From: Trichaptum fuscoviolaceum | Taxonomy: Eukaryota; Basidiomycota; Agaricomycetes; Hymenochaetales; Trichaptaceae | Length of the DNA: 64,000 bases | Reading direction: 5' to 3' | NCBI GenBank assembly: GCA_910574455.1 | Contig: CAJSYZ010000004.1 | Location: 3,404,565 to 3,468,564 of the forward strand | Shown here: positions 4,535-59,300 of the stretch, in pieces | How the letters are laid out: the number at the start of each line of letters is the position of its first letter | Numbering within the stretch: the first letter of the stretch is position 1 | Translations under genes and position numbers: made by a program | Notes under the pieces: model-generated | The model's input: the letters and a program-made list of their open reading frames with translations, nothing else | What the model was told of the DNA's origin: nothing | Database searches by the model: none

Positions 4535-6278
4535 ATGCCCGATATTTTCGCGATAGATGAAGTATTGCGCACCTTTCTACGCTTTTGTGATAAAGCAAGT
4601 CTTGCCCGCTTGGCACGTACAAGCAAACTGCTCTCAGACCCAGCGCTGGACATACTATGGGAAACTCTCGAGTCGTTCTTACATTTCCTGAAGCTCTTTC
4701 CAGAAGACTTGATCACATTCAATGTTATGGATAATGGGATGGTGAAACCTGTGGGTACTAGCAGAGTTCTCGTCTTTGAGTCATCGATGACCCCTTTTCC
4801 AGACGGTCAACCACTTGATCATACCGCGCCATTGGAAGCGCGTAACACCGTATGCTCGACGGATTCGTGTTTGGAAGTCGGAGGATCTTTCGTACATCGA
4901 TGAACCTGTTGTCGACCACTTGGCATTCGGAAGGCCACCGGAGTACATCATGCCCCGTCTCCAGCATATGGAGGTAGCAGGAACGAGTGTCTCGGGAGTA
5001 CATCTGCAGACCTTCCTCACCTGTCCGTCTCTCGAGACTGTCACTGTGTGGAACACCGATCCGGATCTTTGGACATCGCGCGCGATGAACACCTACTTTC
5101 GCACCCTCGCAGACCGCGCACTGAACCTGCGGAAGCTCATCGTGCATTGGGGCGACCTTGGGCCTGCGAATGCCTCCTTGCAAGCCTCGCAGACCCCATT
5201 CGTCGACGGTCTGTACGACATATTCTCGTATCAGGGTTCGCAGCTCCAGACGGTGAACCTGTGGTCACCGTTGTCACTGGACTCGAAGACGTTCCTGATG
5301 CTATCTCAGATGCCAAACTTGTCTACGCTACACCTCAACTTGATCGGCATACATAACGCAGACGTGCTGGGAGTAGATATCAAAGACCGCTCGCATGCGT
5401 TTCCAGCACTGAAAGACGTCTTCCTAGCGGGCGCAGTGGGGGCTTTCCCGAAGATTCTTCAGTATTTTGGTAATGCGTCGGACATGACGAGTCTGGGATT
5501 CAGCGTAAGAGAGGTTCCACTCGCGAAATCCTTAGCAGCACTGTTCACGTCGGTGGCAAATACGTTCACGCGACTACGTATCTTGCAGTTCAATGTACCC
5601 AAGGAAGAAATCAGTATGACACTGTCCACCCTTCAATCTATCAACGACACAGAGCTATACCATTATGATATCCATGTCATTAAAAATCTTCTGCGACTAC
5701 ACAGCATCGTCGCAGTCCACCTCGAACTCGGTGTCCCTCTACATCTCACGGACTCAGATCTACGTACGATTGGCAAAGCCTGGCAGAATATAGAAGTGCT
5801 CAATCTTTGCTCTGATCCGTTCTGTGAACGTACGCGAGCACGACCGACGTCATCAGTGAATGGGCTCCTTGCTGTTGTTTCTCAGTGCTCGTCACTCAAG
5901 CACCTCGGTCTCTTTGTCGACTACAGCGCAGGAGTCTCAGAGGATGCCATTGCAAGTGCCGAATTCGCGTCGAGCTCGCTCGTTCACCTCGATGTCGGAC
6001 GCAGCTGGATCAAAGAGCCAGCTCTTGTCGCTGCTCTCCTTAGCGGTGTTTTCCCAGTGCTAAAAGTTTTCCAGTGGTCTGGCATGTCAGATCCCGGAAC
6101 GACCGAGGACGATCCCTGGGCGGACGAAAGGTCGGTGAGCATCGCGTTTGGGCATGCCAGTGGCTGGCGTCGAGTGTTTGATCTCTTGCCTGTATTTCGC
6201 GCTGTTCGAGCAAACGAGCGCCGGGTCCGGAACTTGGAGACTATTCTTCCGATCGAGGCAGGTATGAACGTCGATTAG
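4535..6278 (+). CDS. F-box protein with leucine-rich repeat-like C-terminus
   Basis: Two exons, 4535-4750 and 4803-6278, joined by a 52 nt GT-AG intron in phase 0, give 563 aa. Without this intron the locus looks like two frames. The N-terminus (FAIDEVLRTFLRFCDKASLA, RLARTSKLLSDPALDILWET) is a typical agaricomycete F-box: hydrophobic start, then leucines, then the P-ALDxLW element. The rest has irregular leucine-rich strands such as LQTVNLWSPLSLDSKTFLML, NLSTLHLNLIGI and LKHLGLFVDYSAG, resembling the degenerate LRR region of fungal FBXL-like proteins. F-box proteins recruit substrates to SCF ubiquitin ligases through Skp1; the substrate cannot be inferred. Basidiomycetes carry large families of such genes. 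It is intact and lies about 690 bp from the tandem array. Confidence 0.82.
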
Positions 6279-6968
6279 CGTACTCTTGCCACTCCTCTCG
6301 GTCTTCAGGCATAGACTGAAACGACTTCGACGCCTCGCTATCCATGCGCTTGCTTCCGGCCCGGCTGGCTGGTTATTCCGATGCTTTCAGGTCTCGACGA
6401 GGATTCATGGCTTTCTCCAAGCGCGGTGCATGTTCCAAGAGCGCTACTTCATCTTCGAATCAATGCAGAGAAATACTTATAATGGGGCTAATATCTCGGA
6501 CATAATAAGGTGATTGTACCCGTTTATCTGATTTTGTACATTCCTTCTCTATATAGTCTTATCTGGTTCACATCTTTCTACTTTTCGTTGAAGTTATTCC
6601 GATTCCTTGATTTCCCCTTTTCTAATCCTGTTTTCTATTGCTATTATGTGTTTTGTTTCCATTCACCCTGTTGTACACTATCCAAGCCATCAACCTTGTA
6701 TTATAGCTGATTTATCTGCTGAGTTTTCAGAATAAAATTAGATCTGCCATTATATCCAAGTCAACAAATGTCACATTACTGGAAGAATAGTTTGAATCAA
6801 AGGACAAGATCAATATCTCTCGCCAAATAACCTCAAGCTCATTTAACACATGCATTGAGCTAGAAAGCGGTTACTTGGTGTCCAGACTTAGACCGAGGAT
6901 GATAGTCAACCTTTCAGAGATAGTCAATCCCAGCGCTCTGGCGCTCTGGCATAACGAAACTGCAAGCA
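6279..6968. other. Intergenic region before the tandem array
   Basis: About 690 bases. The first ~200 bases extend the GC level of the F-box gene; the rest is AT-rich. No conserved coding sequence recognised. The sequence changes abruptly at 6969, where identity with the later repeat units begins. Confidence 0.5.
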
Positions 6969-7494: not shown

Positions 7495-8819
7495 ATGCGT
7501 TCAACGTCGCATCTCACTGGCACGTCGTCCACGTCGACAGTCAGACCCAAATCACCGAGGTCGAGTGCTCATACTCGAGCAGAGTCGCCGCTGCCGAAGA
7601 ACAGCGTCCGTACCCATCTCGCAGACTTTCTGCCACTTCCGCGCCACGCACTCTTCCACGTCAAGGTCACGATCCACCAGCTCTGGAATGTTCCGTTTGT
7701 CAACGGTCGATACAGTGTGCGATGGAAGTTTCAGAATGTACAGTCTGTGCGAGGGAATGGGCTGAAGGCGAAGATGAGAGCATCGGCGGCGGCGTCGGTG
7801 TCGAATTTGACGGCAAAGGGGAAGGGCCGGGTGGTGAGCGGCGAGAGCATGGAGAGCAACGGAACCGGAAATGAGTCGCTATTTCCCTCAGAGGATTCAT
7901 CAAGATCATCGGTCGTGAACGACGGAGCGTCGTCTACAAACCCCTCGCCACTGCTAAAGACAGCATTCTTGCCTGACAACGGGGATGTGCTCGAGTTCTC
8001 ACACGACTCCCGGGGGCGCACGGACTATGTCGATCTGAGAGACCATAACGTGAAATGGGGTCAGACAATCAATGTTCTCGTTCAGATGGATGTGCACCGA
8101 GATACCAAGGAGCTGCAGCCAAGCGAGCTCAAGCTCGTGGTCGAGCAAGTGAGTGTCTCAATGATATTATGCGTTAGACGGACTTCTTATTCGTGCAGCT
8201 TGTCATTCCCGGTGACCCAGATTCGCCTCAGACCCCACGCCTGGGTGCTGTGTACCTCAATCTGGCAGAGTACGCAGATGAGGGCCCCGTCACTCGCAGA
8301 TATCTCCTCCGGCAAAGCAAGATAAACGCAACGCTGCAGCTCACCGTCGAGCTCACACATATCGACGGCGAAAAGTCTTATAAATCTCCACCCCTAAGGA
8401 AGGGCGAAGTGATGGCGGGAGTTGCGACACTCCTTGAGAATAGCCCCTTCGGCTCCCTCCATCGCCCGTCCTTCTCTCGCCAGGCATCGACCAGGCCAGC
8501 GTTCGGCCTAGAGAATCTGACACCCGGCGGATCTCGACCGAGCTCCCCACGATCCCGCGCGCACAGTCCGAGTCCGGAATCACTACGAACGACAGACAAC
8601 ATCATTGAGGCGATCTTTAACCCTGTACCTACGAGCTCAACTACACCTTCGCCGTTTACATACTATGTCCCGCCAAAACCTCGCCCTTTACCTGCGCTGG
8701 ATCTTAGCACCATACACGATCAGACCGAGGACGAACCTCCACAGAGTGCTGTCAGCAGAAGCACCAGTGTATCTCGGTCTATCTCGATGTCGACTCATAG
8801 CAGTCATTCGCATGCATGA
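7495..8819 (+). CDS. NT-C2 (EEIG1/EHBP1 N-terminal C2) domain protein, copy 1
   Basis: Exons 7495-8148 and 8199-8819 with a 50 nt GT-AG intron in phase 0 give 424 aa. Residues about 45-70 (HALFHVKVTIHQLWNVPFVN then GRYSVRWKFQNVQ) match the opening strands of the NT-C2 domain. The domain resumes after a Ser-rich insert of about 80 residues at KWGQTINVLVQMDVHRDTKE and LVIPGDPDSPQTPRLGAVYL, and ends near YLLRQSKINATLQLTVELTH. The C-terminal ~170 residues are Ser/Pro-rich and look disordered. NT-C2 domains are thought to bind membranes or Rab/actin adaptors (EHBP1, EEIG1). A trafficking or cytoskeletal adaptor role is family-level inference only. The protein is identical to copy 2. The ATG is the first in the frame and follows a stop-rich leader. 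Confidence 0.85.
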
Positions 8820-44309: not shown

Positions 44310-44311
44310 AG
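44310..44311. repeat. Left target-site duplication (AG)
   Basis: AG here and AG at 50708-50709 flank the insertion. The empty site in U1-U5 reads CTAG-TGG with a single AG, so a 2 bp duplication explains both flanks. Confidence 0.7.
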
Positions 44312-44337
44312 CATCGGGAGAAAGGGAAACGGATTAT
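44312..44337 (+). repeat. Left terminal inverted repeat
   Basis: 26 bp, 23 of 26 matching the reverse complement of 50682-50707; core AAAGGGAAAC. Confidence 0.8.
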
Positions 44338-44760
44338 AGACTGTGTAATCGCATATAAGACCCCAAAATCGTCATAATCGTCATATACCATTTATATTCC
44401 CAAGTAATTCACTATAAACTGTAGTCTACCTTATACGAGCTTCCAATGCCAATAATATCTTATGGACATTACAACTGATTACTAGCCTTGTAATCTTCAA
44501 AATGCATTATATTCTCCATAATAATTGTACCCCTTATCTTACATTATGAAGGCTTATGATCAATTGCAGACATTATCATCTCCGTATTTGCTTATAATTG
44601 CTACCAGACTTATGGTGCTTATATGTGATTGTGAGAGATTATAATGGATTATGAGGATTATATATACTAGAAGGTGATATAAAGCCTGTGTAATCCTTAC
44701 GGTCCTTCTCACTTTCACACAATATGATAGAATGAAAAGCATAGTATATTTAATCAGTAC
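44338..44760. repeat. Left subterminal AT-rich repeat region
   Basis: Dense short motifs in both orientations (GGATTATA, CTTATAAT, TTATGG). No coding sequence. Typical of transposase-binding subterminal repeats. Confidence 0.6.
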
Positions 44761-44763
44761 TAG

Positions 44764-46068
44764 CTACATACAATTGAAATGAAGTACTAAATATATATGA
44801 CCTTGCACCTCTGCAAGGTACCCTGCATTGAGATGCGGTGGGCTGGGTTCCTGGCGCAGACGCCGCATGGCATGGCATGGCATGCCTCCGGGAAATGCTT
44901 GCGGAACCATCGAGGGATGAACGCGTTCTCGTACAGTGCGTTGGCTTCGATATCCTTGCGATCCCTCCCACGGAAGGGCAGCTAATAAAGACGGTGTTAG
45001 TGAAAGTGATGGGTTGGAACAGAGGAAACTCACCATTCCAGAGACAAGCCCGTAGAAAATGACGCCAATGGAGAAACTGTCGGCCTTGTACGAGTAATGG
45101 TCGCCACGAAGCATCTCTGGCGCCATGTAGCCCGTCGTGCCACGTCCTGTGCCAATAGCCATCGTAAGTTAGTACCCCGTCAATGCTTACCCCGTGTCCT
45201 TTGAAAACATGCGCGAGGCCGAGAGCCGACCTTGCTCATCCATGAATACGTGGTCGGGCTTGAGGTCGCGGTAGACATGGCCTGATCGTGCAAGATGCCT
45301 ACTGCATAGCACTGCAAAGACGATGAGTCACCAATCAAGGAAAGGGGGAAACGGAAGACATACTAGTTGCGCCATGATGAACTGGATTTCATGCATGCGG
45401 AACAGCTTCTTCGCGTTGCTCATCGCTCCTCGCAAGGTACCGCCAGCGGCCAAGCCCTGGATGATGATGAAATTGTGCGGGTCCATGAAGGATTCTATAA
45501 GAGGGGTAAAATAGGGTGAGTTAAGCAAAGTCAGGTCAGAAAGGATCTTCTTCTCTGTAAACAACATGTCCCGACTGTCTCGGTCGACACTCGCGCGCGA
45601 AATCTGCTTGATCGCGACCCTCTTGCCGACATCTGTTGACAGTCTGGAAAAAATGGCTTCCCTGAAATAGAAAGAATTGGACTCACTTTTCGGATGGCAC
45701 AAATAAAGCCTTGTCCAACAAGAAGTCTTGAGGTTTTGTTGTGTCGACACTGTCTTGAGGTCTACGCGCACACGGCTCACACGCGGCTCACCTGGCAGTG
45801 AGTGTGACGTAGTGTACTGGCGAGCCCGCATATAGTCACACCTGGGTGGCACACCAGTAAATCATCAGAGAAAGAGCACAAAACAAGATAAGAATATGAG
45901 AGCATACCAATAACAAGAAAAACACGAAAATTGAAGGCCATCCTGTGGATGGATGGAGAGAGACGAGATTGGATGGAAGACGAGGAAGTGGAAGGAGAGA
46001 GAGGAGGGAGGAAGGGGGATTCGCGACGCGTCACGGTCGTGTTGGTAATTAAAACTCCGCAGCATCAT
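44764..46068 (-). pseudogene. Protein kinase fragment, decayed (captured)
   Basis: On the minus strand, kinase subdomains appear in order. RVAIKQISRASVDRDSRDML (about 45570-45620) carries the ATP-binding Lys. VYRDLKPDHVFMDEQG (about 45233-45280) is the catalytic loop with Tyr in place of the usual His. GTGRGTTGYMAPEMLRGDHY (about 45100-45160) holds the APE motif, and YKADSFSIGVIFYGLVSG follows. The DFG motif should lie between LSAS and RMFSK near 45220 and is missing, apparently through a short deletion, and the downstream frame breaks repeatedly. The lobe order and the MLFTEKKILSDL region suggest an AGC-like Ser/Thr kinase. Not functional as it stands. Confidence 0.75.
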
Positions 46069-46117
46069 GATCGCGCCTCAAGCCTCAAATCGCTAAGTCC
46101 GTAAAAACATCAGAGCT

Positions 46118-47868
46118 GCTCTTCAAACGATTTCCAGCTAACGGTCTTCAATTATAATATCTACGAGAAGGTGACTGCATTAGAAGCCCATCCTGACTAC
46201 ATTCGATGCCTTGTTATCCACCCAACATTTAGCATTATGCTGACGGACTGCGATGATATGACGGTCAAGGACTGGGATAAACAGTGGAAGTGTTCAGGTG
46301 CGTACATCTACTGCTTCAAACTTAGACTTCATCTAATTATCTCTGAAGGTAGAAGGACACACACACTCCATCATGAACCTTGTATTCAACCGCAAGGACA
46401 CCAACACCTTTGCCTCCTCTTGTCTTGATCGCACCGTGAAGATGTGGTCGCTCGGTTCCTCGACGCCGAATTTCACCTACGTCGACTTCCATCCCGGTGC
46501 GGACAAGCCATACATTGTCACGAGCGGTGACGACCGAACAATAAAAGTCTGGGACTACCTCAGCAACACCTGTTTACAGACATTGGAGGGACACACCAAC
46601 AACGTCTCGTTTGCCGCATTCCACCCTAATCTGCCCTTGATCGTCGTTTGGAGGATGGTACGATCAAGATCTGGTACCCGGACACTTACCGCCTCGAAAA
46701 TACTTCGAGCTACGCTCTTGTACGCGCATGGTGCATTACCGTCCGACCGCAGGGGAACGAGGTTGGCGTAGGGTATGACGAAGGTGTGGTCGTGGTCAAA
46801 CTTGGCCGTGACGAGCCTTCCACAAGCAAGTTTCCTCTCTTCATCCTAGACTTCTACACGCTAACATGGAATGATAGCCCAATATACCTGCTGGGCAACA
46901 TCCCCGCTCACAACCGTGTTTATCTTGCCGATAAAGACATTAAAGTGTTCGGTTACTCCCTGTCTTTGAACCTCACCGAGTATCAGAGTGCAATCCTGCG
47001 TGGGGATATGGAGGCTGCGGAGGAGATCCCGCCGACTGTACCGAAAGAGCAGCGGAGCAAAGTCGCGCGTTTCCTAGAAGCCCGAGGTACGTCTTTGATA
47101 ACCATCGAATTCAGCAGAAAAACTGACTCAATCGTTCTCCTTTTCACAGATCTTAAGGAGCTCGCGTTACAGGTTACAACAGACCCTGATCACAAGTTCG
47201 ACCTCGCACTTCAACTCGACGATCTAGACGCGGCCCTGGAGATCGCACGTACAACACCCAAGCACGAGGCGGAGTCGAAGTGGAAGGCTGTCGGTGACCG
47301 CGCGCTGGCCGTCTGGCGCCTCGACCTCGCACGGGAACGCTTTGAGAATGCAGGGGATCTGAGCGCTCTCATGCCCCTTCTGCTAGCGATAGGCGACCGG
47401 GATGGTCTCAAGAAACTCGCTGAGCAAGCCGGTGAGTATTCATACCGTTTTAAATAGCTCTTTAGGTTTCTGACGATTTATTGTAGAGGAGAAGGGCCAA
47501 AACAACCTTGCGTTCGCGAGTCGGCTGCAGCTCGGCGACGCGACTGCATGCGTCGACCTGCTGGTGAAGACCGACAGAGCGCCGGAAGCTGCGCTCTTCG
47601 CTCGTACATTTGCGCCTAGGTATGTGATACATCTATTCAAAGTATGAAGAGGCTGTTTATTCCTTCCCTCAATACTCCTCGTAGCCTCGTCCCAAAGACC
47701 GTGAGTGCATGACGGACAAATCTCGATTTAAAAGGCCGTAAAAAGATCGCGACAGCAATCGCATCACCCGAGGAAAACCCTGAGCTTTTCTCTGAAGGGT
47801 GGGCGGACGCACTAGAAAGAGAGAAGGTGATGGACCATTGGAAGCGCAGCAGGCTGGCATACAAGTGA
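46118..47868 (+). pseudogene. Coatomer subunit beta' (COPB2) fragment, decayed (captured)
   Basis: The fragment starts abruptly inside a WD40 repeat at DFQLTVFNYN, so the first ~100 residues are absent. It continues through LEAHPDYIRCLVIHP, LDRTVKMWSLGSSTPNFT, VTSGDDRTIKVWDYLSNTCL, LEGHTNNVSF, DGTIKIWYPDTYRLENT and VVVVKLGRDEP. It then jumps to the alpha-solenoid (PIYLLGNIPAHNRVYLADKD, PPTVPKEQRSKVARFLEA, HKFDLALQLDDLDAALEIAR), skipping the second propeller. Further defects are a short loss before YVDFHPG, a frameshift near 46645, and a Trp-to-stop change (TGA at 47710-47712) in SLVPKTVSA(W)RT. Introns are still present, so it is not retroposed. The intact gene encodes a COPI coat subunit for Golgi-ER traffic; this copy cannot. 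Confidence 0.85.
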
Positions 47869-47889
47869 TTGGACATTCTGGTACGTGTC

Positions 47890-50345
47890 CCATTTTACCT
47901 GCTGCACACTGCAAATAATCATATTACAACGTCTTTTGGAGGCTCGAGGTTACCCGGAAAACGCATGATCCTCACGTATTTTAGCAGAGGTGATGATCCT
48001 ACGCATGTCCCACCCATCCCCGAATGTGCGCGAATACAACATGGCCCTCGGCTTACTCCTCTTGTCTCATGCCCCCGGACAACCGATTACCGTTACGCTG
48101 GAGACGTACAATGAGACGCTCACTCGTCAGATTACGCCCAATGTTCGCACCTACAAGACTATGATTCTGGCATTGTGCGAGTGTGACAAGGAGGTCCGCG
48201 AGTCATCGGTCAGCTCGAATGGCGGCAAAGGCGGCGTGAATTCAATGCCAAGAGAGACACGTTGGATTTCCCAGAATCGGAGCAGGTTCAATTGCTTCGT
48301 AAGGAAGATAACTTTGGCTCAGCATTGTTGATATTTGAAGCTGCCCAGAGTATCTAAGGTGACGGTAAAAAGAGGAACTTACCACTTGGAAAGGGAATCT
48401 ATCATGTTCTCCGTTCTTGCGCGTTCATGGCAATGTCGACGCTGCAGTTCGTATCTGGACCCATATCGAAGACATCCCCCATTTCCAACCCGATGCGATG
48501 TGCTACTTCCTGAGTACCTACGTGTCGACTGGCGACATAGAATCAGCACAAGATGTGTTCACGGAGTTCCGTTTGGCCTCGGCCGAAGGTCGCGTCTCCT
48601 GGGACGTTGCAGAAGGCGTCGAGGATCTTTCAACTCACATCCTTAGCGACGACGTACGCCCTGGGCAGGCGCGTGCGGCGCAAATGCTCGTGTGGATAAA
48701 GATAGCCGAGGCGTATTTCCTGGCGAAGCAGCCCGTGAAGGCTATCGCACTTCTCGAGGAAATGATAGACACGAAAGCAAGCGTTCTGTTCGTCCCGGCC
48801 GATGTTCCCCCTCCCTGCAGTGCTCAGCGGTCTATACTGCCTTCATAACTGGGTCAATACGGAGCGATGACATACACTCGGCGCTCGTGTGGTTCAGATG
48901 CTAGAGCAGGATACAGTCGCTGCGCACACCGCATCCCAGTCGGGCCGCCTGAACATGATACTCGAAGCACTGGCCAAGGAGAAGATGCTCCCCGAACTCA
49001 ACCGCCTATACCGCACTCTGCTGAATGTGGCCAATTGCGACGGTTTGCATATCAGCGACTACGACCGGATCGCCGTTTTCGAGCTCAATGTCGAGCATCT
49101 CCGCCGCCATCCTGATCTTCCTAAGGAGGAGTTCGACGAGCTCCTCGACCGGGTGCCCAATCTGGAATACCGCGCAGGTGCGATCCCGTATTCGCTCGGG
49201 CGCAGCCACCACGATTCGTTTATCGCCTTCCTCGGCATCTTGGCCCAGCGCGGTCGCTACGCCGACACCTTGCAGCTTCTTGAGAAGTTTGTCCAGTCAG
49301 GCGTGCAGTTCCTCAATGACGCGAGGGCATCTGGCGAGCTCGATGCGCAGATGATCGTCAGCAGACTGCGAGGCCTACAGTCGGCGCTGCACAGCGCGAT
49401 GGACAGAGTCCTCCTTATCTAGGACAAGGATTGGAATTACCGCACTCATGCGTTAGATTTCGTCACTCGCATCGGTTCAGTCATGACTGGATTGGATTTG
49501 CTTCCCGACATTCGCGCATGCGCGTCGATCTTGCAGGCTTACAGTGCAGCTTCGCCACAGGAGAAGTCCGGTCTGTCCACGCAACATTGGTCCATCTTAT
49601 TCAATGTAGTGGCCGCATACGTCGGACTTCAGACCAGAGGTGATGTCGAAATGATGAGGAACGATATAGCAAAGGATTTCAGCATCAAAGATCTGACAGA
49701 CTTCTTCACCGACGTTGGGAAAGCCACAAGCGGGTGTACAACCTCAGACACTGGGTGAAGACGTCTCTTGTAGAATTATCGCATCAGTGCTGCTGAAGTA
49801 TGGAAAGAGCGGTGCGGTCGCAAAGGTTCGAAATGGAATGCCTTCCAACACAGCAATCAGTCCATTGCAGCTGAAATCTGAGGTGGAACTTGAGGCTGCA
49901 GAGCTGCGGCCCGCCAAGCTCGATCAGTTCTTCAGCCGCAGCGTCGACGAGTACTACCCTATAAATCCGAAGGTGACACCCCACATCGCTACGAATCTGG
50001 TGCCGCCAACGACACTTTCCCCATGCCTGACGTGGCTGGCCGACTGATAGCTTCGGGCGCATGAACGACACGTAGAAGGTGAACAGGCTGTACCGGGACG
50101 GACAGCACGTGCTGAAGCTCATGGATACGGGGAAGCTGAGCAACGCAAAGTATGATGGTTATACTTCGTTCCTGGTACATTTCCTTATTCTTCATGTGTA
50201 TTGAGTATTTGCTCATACAGGCCTAGCCAGCTGTTGACGGGCTACGGAGAACTCATGCTTGCTGAGAAGTACGGACTTGTGCCGAAAGAGTCTTTTGCAG
50301 AGCCCTATATTCTTTTGGCATCGATGGTCAGTTTTTGTTTGCTTG
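47890..50345 (+). pseudogene. Pentatricopeptide/TPR-like protein fragment, decayed (captured)
   Basis: Helical-repeat coding blocks appear across changing frames: NVREYNMALGLLLLSHAPGQ, ITPNVRTYKTMILALCECDK, LDFPESEQVQLLRKEDNFGS, HGNVDAAVRIWTHIEDIPHF, YVSTGDIESAQDVFTEFRLA, ISDYDRIAVFELNVEHLRRH, FLGILAQRGRYADTLQLLEK and GLDLLPDIRACASILQAYSA. The tandem helix-turn-helix character and NPxVRTYxTMI phrase fit a fungal PPR protein, normally mitochondrial. At least four frame changes and stops (for example TAG at 49420) prevent translation. No N-terminus is seen. Exact orthology not recognised. Confidence 0.65.
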
Positions 50346-50681
50346 AGGCTTATCAGACCTTATGAACTTTATATACTCTGTATTTGAATGTAAGACATGG
50401 ATCTAGCTTATATCACTCTTATAATAGGTCCATATACCTTTCAGAACATTATATGACATTTTAGCAACATTATATGATGGACATAAGCAAGATGCCATTC
50501 TTACAAGGGGACATAAGCATGATAGCAGGATTATAATCTCTGCGTAAGCCTTATGAAGGATTATATTAAACGTATAAGCTTTATGATGCAACTATAATCA
50601 TGGTATAAGCCGGATGCCATATTGTAATCTATAATAAGCATGACAGCTGTCTTATAATCTCCGTAATTGTCCGTAATCCTA
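50346..50681. repeat. Right subterminal AT-rich repeat region
   Basis: Many short motifs (ACATAAGC, TTATAATC, TATATGA) mirror the left subterminal region in composition. No coding sequence. Confidence 0.6.
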
Positions 50682-50707
50682 CATAATCTGTTTCCCTTTT
50701 TCCTGAT
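50682..50707 (-). repeat. Right terminal inverted repeat
   Basis: Reverse complement matches 44312-44337 at 23 of 26 positions. Confidence 0.8.
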
Positions 50708-51170
50708 GAGTGGTCCCTGGCGCTGACAGGCAACCGAGTTGCGCGTCCTCGGTTAGTTTTTTCACTTTGAAACCTGGATCTTCGCCGTTTCTGATTGCAC
50801 CACATGCCTGAATGGCATGGGAAAGCCAGAGGGCTCTGACGGGCTTAAAAGGCGTCGATTACCCGTCCTTCCAGGCTCAAGAACCGTGCGCACGGCCCCC
50901 ATTCCCCTTCTCTATGCTTGTCGACTGCTTCCTCTTTCCTCATTGTTCGGGTGGCCCTCGTCATTGTGGAATGGACCTCGCAACTGCGAGTCAGCGGGTT
51001 AGGGGGACGCCCCTATCCGCAGATTCAAAGGCACCCATCTCGTAAGTTTATCCTCTTGTCACCATTTACTCTATTTGACTTTTACTTTATTCTTTTGGGT
51101 TAATGGCTTTGCTCTGAGCTTTGACCAGTAAGCCCATTTGCTCTTGCATGCATTGTTGCTAACTCAGATT
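50708..51170 (+). repeat. Tandem amplicon unit U6, right remnant
   Basis: Resumes with AGTGGTCCCTGGCGCT, matching U1 from about 11662, but lacks about 200 bases found in U1-U5. Matching ends near GCATTGTTGCTAACTCAGAT, before the G-rich tract and motif B array. This is the right edge of the array. Confidence 0.85.
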
Positions 51171-56338: not shown

Positions 56339-59300
56339 ATGCCAGCGACACGGAAAAAAGCACGATCCCTTTCATTTTCCACCAACTATTCGATGCACCT
56401 TGCCTGGCTGTAGTAGGACGTTCAAGAGTCAATCTGGAAGAGCAAGACATGAATATTCAGCTCATCCGACGTCATTCTTGGCAAGTTCTTCTGCTTGTGG
56501 TCATGAATATGAATCGTCACCTATTCGACCCATACGAGCTCCAAGTCCTCAACTTGAAGCTCTCCTGAGGTCGTCCGAACTTCCATCAGAGGGTCATCTT
56601 GAGAGCGGCTCTGACTCCTACGATTACGATATTTCCATGCTTACACAGGATATCTCGATGCTCAGTATAGGCCGAGACGAGCTGCTTCAAGATTTGGACA
56701 GACCTGATTCTCTGTCCCATTCTGTCACCGGAAGTGACAGTGGCCGTTCTGAAGACTTGGATTCCGACATTGGAGATTATGAGGAGAGCGAGGATAACTT
56801 GAAGGTGTATCACAGATACTTGAATGGTGCGCGCCAAATCAATTGTTCCCGGTTTACTGTAGCATTTTGACACCAAACATTGTGCAGCCACTCCATGCGA
56901 TGCAGAAGGGAACTTCTTAGAATACGAAGACTCACCCGCTCCGCGAAACGAATCTGCGTCAAATGACTGGTTTCCATATTCGTGCCGAGCAGATTTTGAG
57001 CTCGCAGATTTTCTCTATCGGGAAGAGCAAATGTCTGCTGGGAACATAACAAAGCTTCTGGGAATCATGAAGGCTTATCAGCTGATTCAGGAGGCGGAGA
57101 ATGTAAAATCTTGCGGATGTTCCGAATTGGATGCGACATTGCCTGACGATGACTTGGATCTGGGTTCAACTAGTACGCTACTCGATGGAGATGCGCAAAA
57201 AATGTATAACGCCATTGATGCTACGAAAGTCGGTGATGTGTCTTGGAAATCCTTTAGTAACTTCTACACGGACGATCATAGCCAAAAGGCAACAAACGAG
57301 AACACCGAGTCATGGAAGAGGAAAGAATATGATGTATGGTATCGGGATCCTTTGGAAGTGATCCGGAATTTGGTGGACAATCCGGCGTTGGAAGGCGAAT
57401 TCGACTATGTCCCGTTTCGTGAGTATCAGCCGAAAGAGGACTCTGATGACAACAAAGAACGAGTCTTCAGAAACTACATGTCCGGAAATTTTGCTTGGGA
57501 ACAGGCTGTAAGTCATGAATCATGCAGCATTCGAAGTTGGAGGAAGTGTACTGATTATCCTTGACTTAGAACAAAATCTACGCCGAAGATAAAGCAGTTC
57601 ATGGGTCCATGTTCGTTCCGGTAATTTTAGGGAGTGACAAGACAACAGTTTCCGTTGGAACTGGCAACAACGAATATTATCCGTTATATCTCTCAATAGG
57701 AAATGTATCTAACAAGGCCCGGCGGTCCCAAAAGTTGAATACAGTCCAGCTCGTAGCATTTCTAGCAATACCAAAGAGTGTGTGTCAAAAACTGAGCTAT
57801 CCATTTGTGTTCTGATGCTTTGCAGCTGAACGGCAGTACGAAAAGTCGGATGAATTCCGCCGCTTTCGACATCAAGTCTTTCATTCATCTATATCGAGAA
57901 TCTTGAGACCACTGAAGAGCGCAATGTCCATAAACAACGAACAAACCATTTTCCGGTGCCCTGATGGTCACTTGCGTAGGTCGATTCTCGGACTCGGCTC
58001 GTATATAGCCGATTATCCGGAACAGGTGAGTCTATGCGCAATATGCACTGGATGGTGCTGCAAGTAAGTATTGTCCTTTCCACAAATCACATCCGACTTG
58101 AGTTCGAGGAAATGGCTTAATGCGGCTACTATATAGATGTACAGCACCTCACAAGAACCTAGATAATCCGGAATTTGTTACAAATCCTCGAACAAAAGAG
58201 CTGCACGAACGATTGATAGAACAGGTGGATGACAATAGCATAAGTAGAGCCACAATTCGTAAGGAGTATGGGTTCCACCAAGATATCGTCGTATGTGTTC
58301 CAACTTCAAGTTGTCCATTAGATGCACTTACCGCAACTTGAACTATGTCCCGTAGCCCTTCACCAATGATTTTCCGCGTGCAGATATATGCGATCTCATT
58401 TCTCCAGACTTACTGCACCAAATCATCAAAGGCGTGTTCAAGGATCATCTTGTCGAGTGGATTTGCCAGAGCATGACCACGACAGAGCTGGATATTGTGG
58501 ATAAAAGGTACTATTCCCTTACAAGTCGTGTGAATACCACTGCTAACTTTCACGTAGAATCAGAGTTGCTGCTCCTTTTCCTGGACTTCGCAGATTTCCC
58601 GAAGGTCGAGGCTTCAAGCAATGGACAGGTAATGATTCAAAGGCACTTATGAAAGTATGTGGTATTTTCATCATGATCTTGTTTGAGGTGGTGGTTTGCT
58701 GATATCTGATGCAATCCGCTTACTAGGTGTATCTTCCGGCTATTGTGGGCATTGTACATGATGATATAGTTCACGCATTGAGTGCATTTCTGGACTTCTG
58801 TTACCTTGTGCGTCGGTACACGATTACAGCCTCAACTCTTGATCAGGTTAAAGCCTCCCTGGATCACTATCATCAATATCGCAAAATATTCATAGCTAAG
58901 GGCATCCGGGATAACTTCTCACTTCCACGACAGCATGCCATGATTCACTATCCTACAATGATCCCTCTCTTCGCTGCACCAAGCGGGCTGTGCTCATCAA
59001 TCACAGAGAATAAACACATTTACGCGGTCAAGGAAACGTGGCGACGCTCAAACAGAAATGATCCTTTAGGTCAGATGATCACAGCAAACCAACGTCTCAG
59101 TAAACTTATTGCATCGAGGGCAGACTTCAAGAGGCGTGGAATGCTGGAAAGTCCTCTGGCTGAGGCTTCATGGAGAGCTTTGCTAGATGTTCTGCGCAGG
59201 AATATGTCAGAGTCGGAGTCAGATGACGCTGAGAGGACCCAAATTCGGAAGGAGCAGATGCAGCATCAAGATACACCCGAAGCTGGTGCAGCTGATGATA

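Follow-up and report, generated by a model that had tools for sequence, protein, structure and literature searches.

A putative Pack-type Plavaka transposon carrying a shared, mosaic cassette of gene fragments in Trichaptum fuscoviolaceum

We analyzed a 64,000-nucleotide stretch of the Trichaptum fuscoviolaceum genome (the window; contig CAJSYZ010000004.1 of assembly GCA_910574455.1, positions 3,404,565 to 3,468,564 of the forward strand), in which a 6,397-bp element at 44312-50708 interrupts one unit, U6, of a tandem array; the element copy carries the same label. U6 is very probably a non-autonomous Pack-type transposon of the Plavaka type (PlavakaB-like, CACTA-related), which would have been mobilized in trans, carry amplified cargo and be built by template switching. 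Because its ends are common to two transposase-bearing copies, C6a and C12a, and it holds cargo instead of a transposase, we refer to it as a gene-carrying Plavaka, or "Pack-Plavaka". The element and its family are real and well bounded, and their main interest lies in the shared, mosaic cassette. An earlier note, made from the letters of the window, had described an element bounded by terminal inverted repeats (TIRs), with a 2-bp target site duplication (TSD), no transposase and pieces of three genes. That description holds; its interpretation changes in three points: a superfamily can be assigned, the target is not fixed as AG and the genes were inherited.

Ends, insertion site and transposase-bearing relatives

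The limits of U6 can be read from its insertion site. The TIRs are 26 bp long (left CATCGGGAGAAAGGGAAACGGATTAT; right, reversed, CATCAGGAAAAAGGGAAACAGATTAT) and mismatch at 3 of 26 positions counted by eye, the same figure as first reported. An AG duplication of 2 bp flanks them. With the element removed, the joined flanks of U6 read CTCTAG followed by TGGTCCC, and flank alignment finds the empty site, CTCTAGTGGTTCC, with one AG only in all five sister units (5/5), in agreement with the note. Its left limit, 44312, also stands; the right end is 50708, 1 bp beyond the 50707 given there. The subterminal motifs it had pointed out are real, as GATTA/TAATC is enriched at the ends (20-22.5 per kb over the terminal 400 bp vs 0.9 per kb inside). 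Additionally, TTATA/TATAA reaches 32-38 per kb within the outermost 400 bp of U6, C6a, C7a and C9a vs 0.6-2.3 inside. Subterminal repeats are similarly dense in CACTA elements. Altogether, the observation of a TIR-bounded, gene-carrying element is confirmed.

Other copies, which the note had proposed to look for, were found in the genome that the window comes from (59.09 Mb, 12 contigs). Counts of family members are minimum values: the sequence searches scored the best 40 of 94, 65, 61, 80 and 135 candidates, and the protein searches the best 150 of 194 (COPB2) and the best 150 of 323 (kinase). A pattern of 22 bases from the left end matches exactly at 21 places including U6, and its reversed control at 0; the right 403 bp match 40 places including U6 (40/40 candidates scored). 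A 2-bp duplication flanks 18 of the 21 same-ended copies, or 18 of the 19 that are assessable, which by chance (1/16 each) has P ~4e-21. The duplications are TG, TC and AT (three each), GT (two), and AG, GG, TA, TT, GC, GA and AC (one each). AG is 1 of these 11 dinucleotides, which rules it out as a fixed target. Several large copies contain open reading frames (ORFs) that look like those of long terminal repeat retrotransposons, as judged by eye.

C6a and C12a are 12,598 bp each, 99.8% identical, and have the ends of U6 with TSDs of their own, GA and AT. U6 has in common with them only element positions 1-352 and 6057-6397 (the outer 352 and 341 bp), of which the left part is 95-96% identical; roughly the first 466 bp are common to many gene-carrying copies. 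In C6a, a 406-aa ORF gives a match to the Plavaka transposase family PF18759 (E 8.7e-26, over the cut-off). This ORF has 427 homologues at E <= 1e-20, with PF18759 in 119 of the 120 listed, and the named homologues among those listed belong to Agaricomycete, mushroom-forming fungi. The 3.4-kb transposase region was found at C6a and C12a only (2/2 candidates scored), and the Plavaka transposase family as a whole is abundant, with at least 165 matches in the genome (123 of 834 first-look candidates scored). Membership of the U6 family in Plavaka is well supported by the PF18759 transposase in these same-ended copies. The superfamily of an element whose 2-bp duplication had seemed to fit none of the common ones can thus be named from that transposase, the TSDs and ends close to a published motif, and the autonomous relative that was to be sought would be C6a/C12a, presumably active. 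C12a (L023/L033) also contains a second gene-like frame of up to 849 aa on the strand opposite to the transposase; in C6a (L022/L032) this frame is split, and both pieces match no Pfam family. In the window itself, one of the at least 165 PF18759 matches lies at 57582-58463 (+) with internal stops.

Passages of PMC12730594 give PlavakaB a TSD of 2-3 bp and termini of 5'-CATCA..TGATG-3', and place Plavaka with EnSpm/CACTA. The 18 duplications of 2 bp agree with this, as do, by eye, those of one A2 copy and one copy of a second family, B. The right end of U6, TGATG, fits the printed motif and its left end, CATCG, is one base off, as are the CATCG..CGATG ends of many other copies. We therefore use "PlavakaB-like" as a label drawn from the TSD and from ends one base off the motif rather than from a tree. 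Assignments other than Plavaka were rejected on the transposase, the TSD length and the ends, three of them in particular: EnSpm/CACTA proper, with CAC termini and a 3-bp TSD, by the CATC ends and 2-bp TSD; Mutator-like elements (Pack-MULE), whose TSD is 8-11 bp, by the 2-bp TSD; and Helitrons, which have neither TIR nor TSD, by the presence of both.

The tandem array occupies 6969-44301 of the window, and its units are 96-99.9% identical over long stretches; U6 is ~78-86% identical to the other units. A 26-bp triple repeat is present in each of five array units. At ~12 bp to the right of the insertion (just right of 50722), ~190 bp of U1-U5 are absent from U6, a difference separate from the insertion. 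An RNA gene in the array was considered and rejected, with no Rfam family at the gathering threshold in the window.

Gene fragments carried by the element

Between the two terminal regions we observe fragments of three genes (Table 1). Selected ORFs (5 + 2) of those of at least 60 aa were run against Pfam and gave Pkinase (4.5e-09, and 3.1e-07 just under the cut-off), WD40 (1.3e-16) and TPR_COPA_B (9.4e-39). A PDB search with the COPB2 stretch returned coatomer beta' at 4.4e-51, and the protein matches of the kinase fragment lie at C4:3449450-3449548 and C4:3449589-3450230 in genome coordinates. The PPR signal in U6 is weak and under the Pfam cut-offs (PPR 0.005, PPR_2 7.8e-04), and a TPR signal is weak as well. 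A related stretch at L009:802-1659, 82% identical to the PPR fragment, passes the cut-off with PPR 2.2e-06; it lies close to the C11a element but not within it. Beside it lies a coding-like frame of 158 aa without a Pfam match. The claim of three unrelated genes is borne out, and the stretch that separates the PPR fragment from the right terminal region is possibly a fourth fragment.

Table 1. Features of the U6 element, in window positions
Feature	Position	Strand	Evidence
Left target site duplication, AG	44310..44311	.	Flank comparison, empty site
Left 26-bp TIR, begins CATCGGG	44312..44337	+	Left end has 21 exact pattern matches including U6
Left terminal region, GATTA/TTATA-type subterminal repeats	44312..44777	+	Copy comparison
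Broken protein kinase fragment	44886..45666	-	Pkinase matches; main match with 1 TGA, 2 TAA
Broken COPB2 (coatomer beta') fragment	46114..47840	+	WD40, TPR_COPA_B; introns kept; end beyond 47720 by eye
Broken PPR-like gene fragment	47960..50117	+	88% DNA identity to C3:1305341-1307567
Stretch past the match to the candidate PPR parent	50118..50367	+	Common to C4c and C8a; one ORF, no Pfam family
Right terminal region with subterminal repeats	50368..50708	+	92% identical to C6a/C12a
Right 26-bp TIR	50683..50708	-	End comparison
Right target site duplication, AG	50709..50710	.	Flank comparison, empty site

No transposase was found inside, as the note had said: none of the matches listed in the genome-wide PF18759 profile search falls in U6. 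U6 thus has the Pack-type feature of lacking a transposase while having ends common to a transposase-bearing element, whose autonomy we presume. The fragments are also decayed, as described earlier, with stops in the kinase (Table 1) and in the PPR piece (1 TGA, 2 TAG). Additionally, the COPB2 fragment is spread over several reading frames, and ~0.88 kb of copy C8b is absent from it at ~46821.

These breaks bear on whether part of the carried genes, and most of all the PPR piece, could be working cargo under selection. Mismatches by codon position, summed over pairs with U6, are 664:685:1149 for COPB2, 253:244:375 for the kinase and 89:48:156 for PPR; pairs >97% identical or covering <60% of the segment were dropped, exon frames were set by hand, and the mismatches are not independent because U6 pairs share history. 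Decay is less plain across the copies: internal stops are present in only 17 of the 52 listed PPR matches, and several copies keep open frames of 332-542 aa. However, U6 itself is broken in both kinase and PPR, frame-breaking gaps are common, and the third-position lean is mild for COPB2 and the kinase and may stem from time in the host gene. Selection on working cargo is therefore disfavored, and we regard it as improbable, less firmly so for the PPR piece.

A shared cassette, its candidate sources and its proposed assembly

The same pieces recur across the genome. Joining hand-picked kinase, COPB2 and PPR matches <4 kb apart gave 102 clusters: 37 with kinase and COPB2, 18 with all three, 11 with COPB2 and PPR, and single-gene clusters of COPB2 (13), PPR (12) and kinase (11), both host candidates being among the single ones. 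A cluster is not equivalent to an element, since large inserts break some copies into more than one cluster (C5a, C4b, C5c, C11b), and at C11:1506709 the PPR piece lies outside the copy with A-type (U6-like) ends. Kinase and COPB2 occur together in 55 of the 102 clusters, in opposite orientation (head to head) in 53, mixed in 2 and all the same way in 0. The 21 same-ended copies carry kinase and COPB2 in 18 cases (including U6), COPB2 alone in 1 (C10b) and neither in 2 (C6a, C12a); PPR sequence is present in 5 (U6, C7a, C4c, C8a, C5a). Since the pair is found in many clusters in the same head-to-head order, the kinase-COPB2 block is shared and amplified, and U6 inherited it. Capture at the U6 site is ruled out for kinase and COPB2, which are common to many copies. 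That this copy itself had done the capturing, as first supposed, is thus not upheld, either for the pair or for PPR, both of which also occur in the second family.

Candidate sources for two of the fragments lie on C3. U6 46900-47720 is 91% identical in DNA to C3:4995870-4996690 over 821/821 bases, a match that takes in two or more GT..AG introns, identified by eye in U6, and a COPB2 N-terminal query aligns with C3:4998210-4998602 at 86% without meeting a stop, so C3:4995870-4998602 is likely to be the host COPB2 gene. The likely host PPR gene is C3:1305341-1307567, where the frame matched by a protein query stays open for 1134 aa. The two candidate loci are 3.7 Mb apart. Among the clustered matches no partner lies within 4 kb of either, an exact pattern search of the whole genome gave no A-type left end on C3, and none of the right-end matches (40/40 scored) is near either locus. 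The alignment to intact parents that the note had advised gives candidates for COPB2 and PPR; for the kinase, the nearest stop-free relative outside the repeat set among the matches listed, C2:1237481-1238106, has only 63-66% protein identity. Three kinase-only places (C2:1101931, C2:1127950, C2:1212620) keep frames of 393-405 aa open where the first part of the kinase query aligns (91%), and have stops in their second parts.

The note had also held that finding the genes as neighbors elsewhere, with the same TIR-like sequences, would speak against capture. They are neighbors in repeat copies, yet the candidate host COPB2 and PPR genes are not. A natural gene cluster that was segmentally duplicated and has TIRs only by coincidence would explain why all three genes stand side by side in 18 clusters, but this reading is contradicted by the TSDs, which together with TIRs are present in 18 of 21 copies, by the empty site and by the unlinked candidate host genes, and we find it scarcely credible. 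Kinase and COPB2 could instead have been head-to-head neighbors in an ancestor, captured in one event, with PPR alone added separately. The constant order in 53/53 unambiguous clusters would suit such joint capture; however, no kinase match lies beside the COPB2 candidate (C3:4.996-4.999 Mb) among the matches listed, and the distance to the nearest unbroken relatives differs (63-66% protein identity for the kinase, 91% DNA identity for COPB2, which are different measures). We consider joint capture rather unlikely.

Within U6 the closest relative changes along the sequence. We scanned 200-bp windows, ignoring alignments <150 bp, and "closest" means among the copies compared. The closest copy is C4c at 44312 (98%), C11a at 44412-44812 (96-100%), C8a at 44912-45012 (97.5%), C5b at 45112-45412 (97-100%), L039 at 46112-46912 (92-99.5%, one window 84%), C7a at 47012-49112 (97.5-100%), and C4c or C7a at 49212-50312 (90-99.5%). 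Identity to the closest copy is 95-100% in the majority of windows, and U6 accordingly reads as a patchwork of other copies. L039, a B-family copy with the kinase-COPB2-PPR order of U6, is also 94-100% identical to U6 across most windows as far as 48112, with a single window at 84%. Its ends are CATCAGG at 614 and CCCGATG at 7808, with GC on both sides, and the match stops <=3 bp from the right end at 18 other places (best 40 of 135 candidates); its terminal sequences are otherwise unlike those of U6. A third, A-like subfamily with ends CATCGGGAAAAAGGGAAAAAG also carries kinase and COPB2, and a nested A-like copy in L035 has TA on both sides. One cassette is thus found behind differing terminal sequences.

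In the mechanism that we propose, Plavaka transposase from full copies of the C6a/C12a kind would recognize the CATCR..YGATG ends and the subterminal repeats, excise the element and reinsert it with a 2-bp duplication at many dinucleotides; the structure is observed, and mobilization in trans is what we infer from it. At least the COPB2 cargo was taken from genomic DNA, its introns being kept. The head-to-head kinase-COPB2 pair was amplified, and the PPR piece, present in fewer copies, is probably a later addition. U6-like versions would arise when broken or excised copies are repaired by copying several others in turn, with template switching during excision-gap repair or at stalled replication. 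Passages of PMC8277862 propose template switching for Pack-TIRs in animals, and the mosaic suggests that it is the likely builder of U6.

Several observations weigh against this account. C8a has both ends intact and unequal flanks (no TSD), the ends of C12b are altered, and the right end of C10c is beyond the compared stretch. In C6a/C12a the transposase is spread over ORFs of 406, 278 (C12a 355) and 387 aa, divided by introns or damage. The PPR candidate has a B-family copy 24 kb away, the host loci are candidates recognized from matches and open frames, and a close kinase source outside the repeat set was not found among the matches listed. The stretch at 45512-46012 is without a close source among the copies compared (best 76-87%), and mobility is here deduced from sequence structure. 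Finally, inserted copies could have exchanged sequence by ordinary recombination or gene conversion, in which case the mosaic would not stem from template switching in repair. Many similar copies are present, and C8a looks as expected of a recombinant; on the other side, U6 has a perfect TSD and empty site and its closest source changes at least 3 times; a post-insertion crossover would be likely to disrupt the TSD, which gene conversion would leave intact. We judge this alternative possible but doubtful. Plavaka could also be a gene-shuffling system in mushrooms, in which a cassette passes between families by serial template switching and the cargo outlives its ends. We put this forward tentatively, as a nearly balanced question; if true, new multi-gene mosaics would form across families with different subterminal sequences.

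Comparison with known gene-carrying transposons

A single 12-contig genome here holds mosaic copies, an empty site and candidates for both the parents and the autonomous partners, so that gene pick-up is testable from breakpoints, which can separate gap repair, replication switching and recombination. Additionally, kinase, COPB2 and PPR fragment gene models in such genomes should be treated with caution, as they can be transposon cargo.

Among basidiomycete transposons with captured genes, Castanera 2014 is said to have described gene-capturing Helitrons of Pleurotus, from which U6 differs by its TIR and TSD. Transduplication is known in fungi: in Dothideomycetes, passages of PMC6710886 describe histone H3 carried by hAT elements after capture of a transcript. 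There, as in the U6 family, fungal host sequence is amplified inside a DNA transposon; hAT-H3 has an 8-bp TSD, intron-less transcript copies and hAT domains that are kept, whereas U6 has COPB2 introns, three genes and no transposase left. In Marasmius oreades, passages of PMC8290104 and PMC9674265 list Plavaka among the major DNA elements and report one Plavaka-related deletion, and these passages do not report gene capture by Plavaka; PMC8290104 refers to a supplement for Plavaka TIR motifs. With PlavakaB of Agaricomycotina, as presented in passages of PMC12730594, U6 shares 2-bp TSDs and, but for one base, ends of the CATCA..TGATG kind, and full copies of both contain PF18759; it differs by the missing transposase, by its host gene fragments and by a G as the fifth base at its left end, and at both ends of many other copies. 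We found no report of Plavaka gene capture in the literature searched, which covered titles and abstracts and had most subscription journals outside its coverage.

Pack-type capture is well described for the MULE and CACTA elements of plants, where Pack-MULEs and Pack-CACTA are TIR-bounded, TSD-flanked, without transposase, and carry fragments of unlinked host genes. U6 resembles them in its TIRs, TSD, lack of transposase and pieces of unlinked host genes. It differs from the plant elements, of which Pack-MULEs are described in passages of PMC8277862, in its superfamily (Plavaka) and kingdom (fungal), and in that one cassette is found at dozens of places and is common to families with different subterminal sequence. 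Because its relatives in the genome carry the same pieces in mixed combinations, U6 appears to be a fungal equivalent of the Pack elements known from plants.

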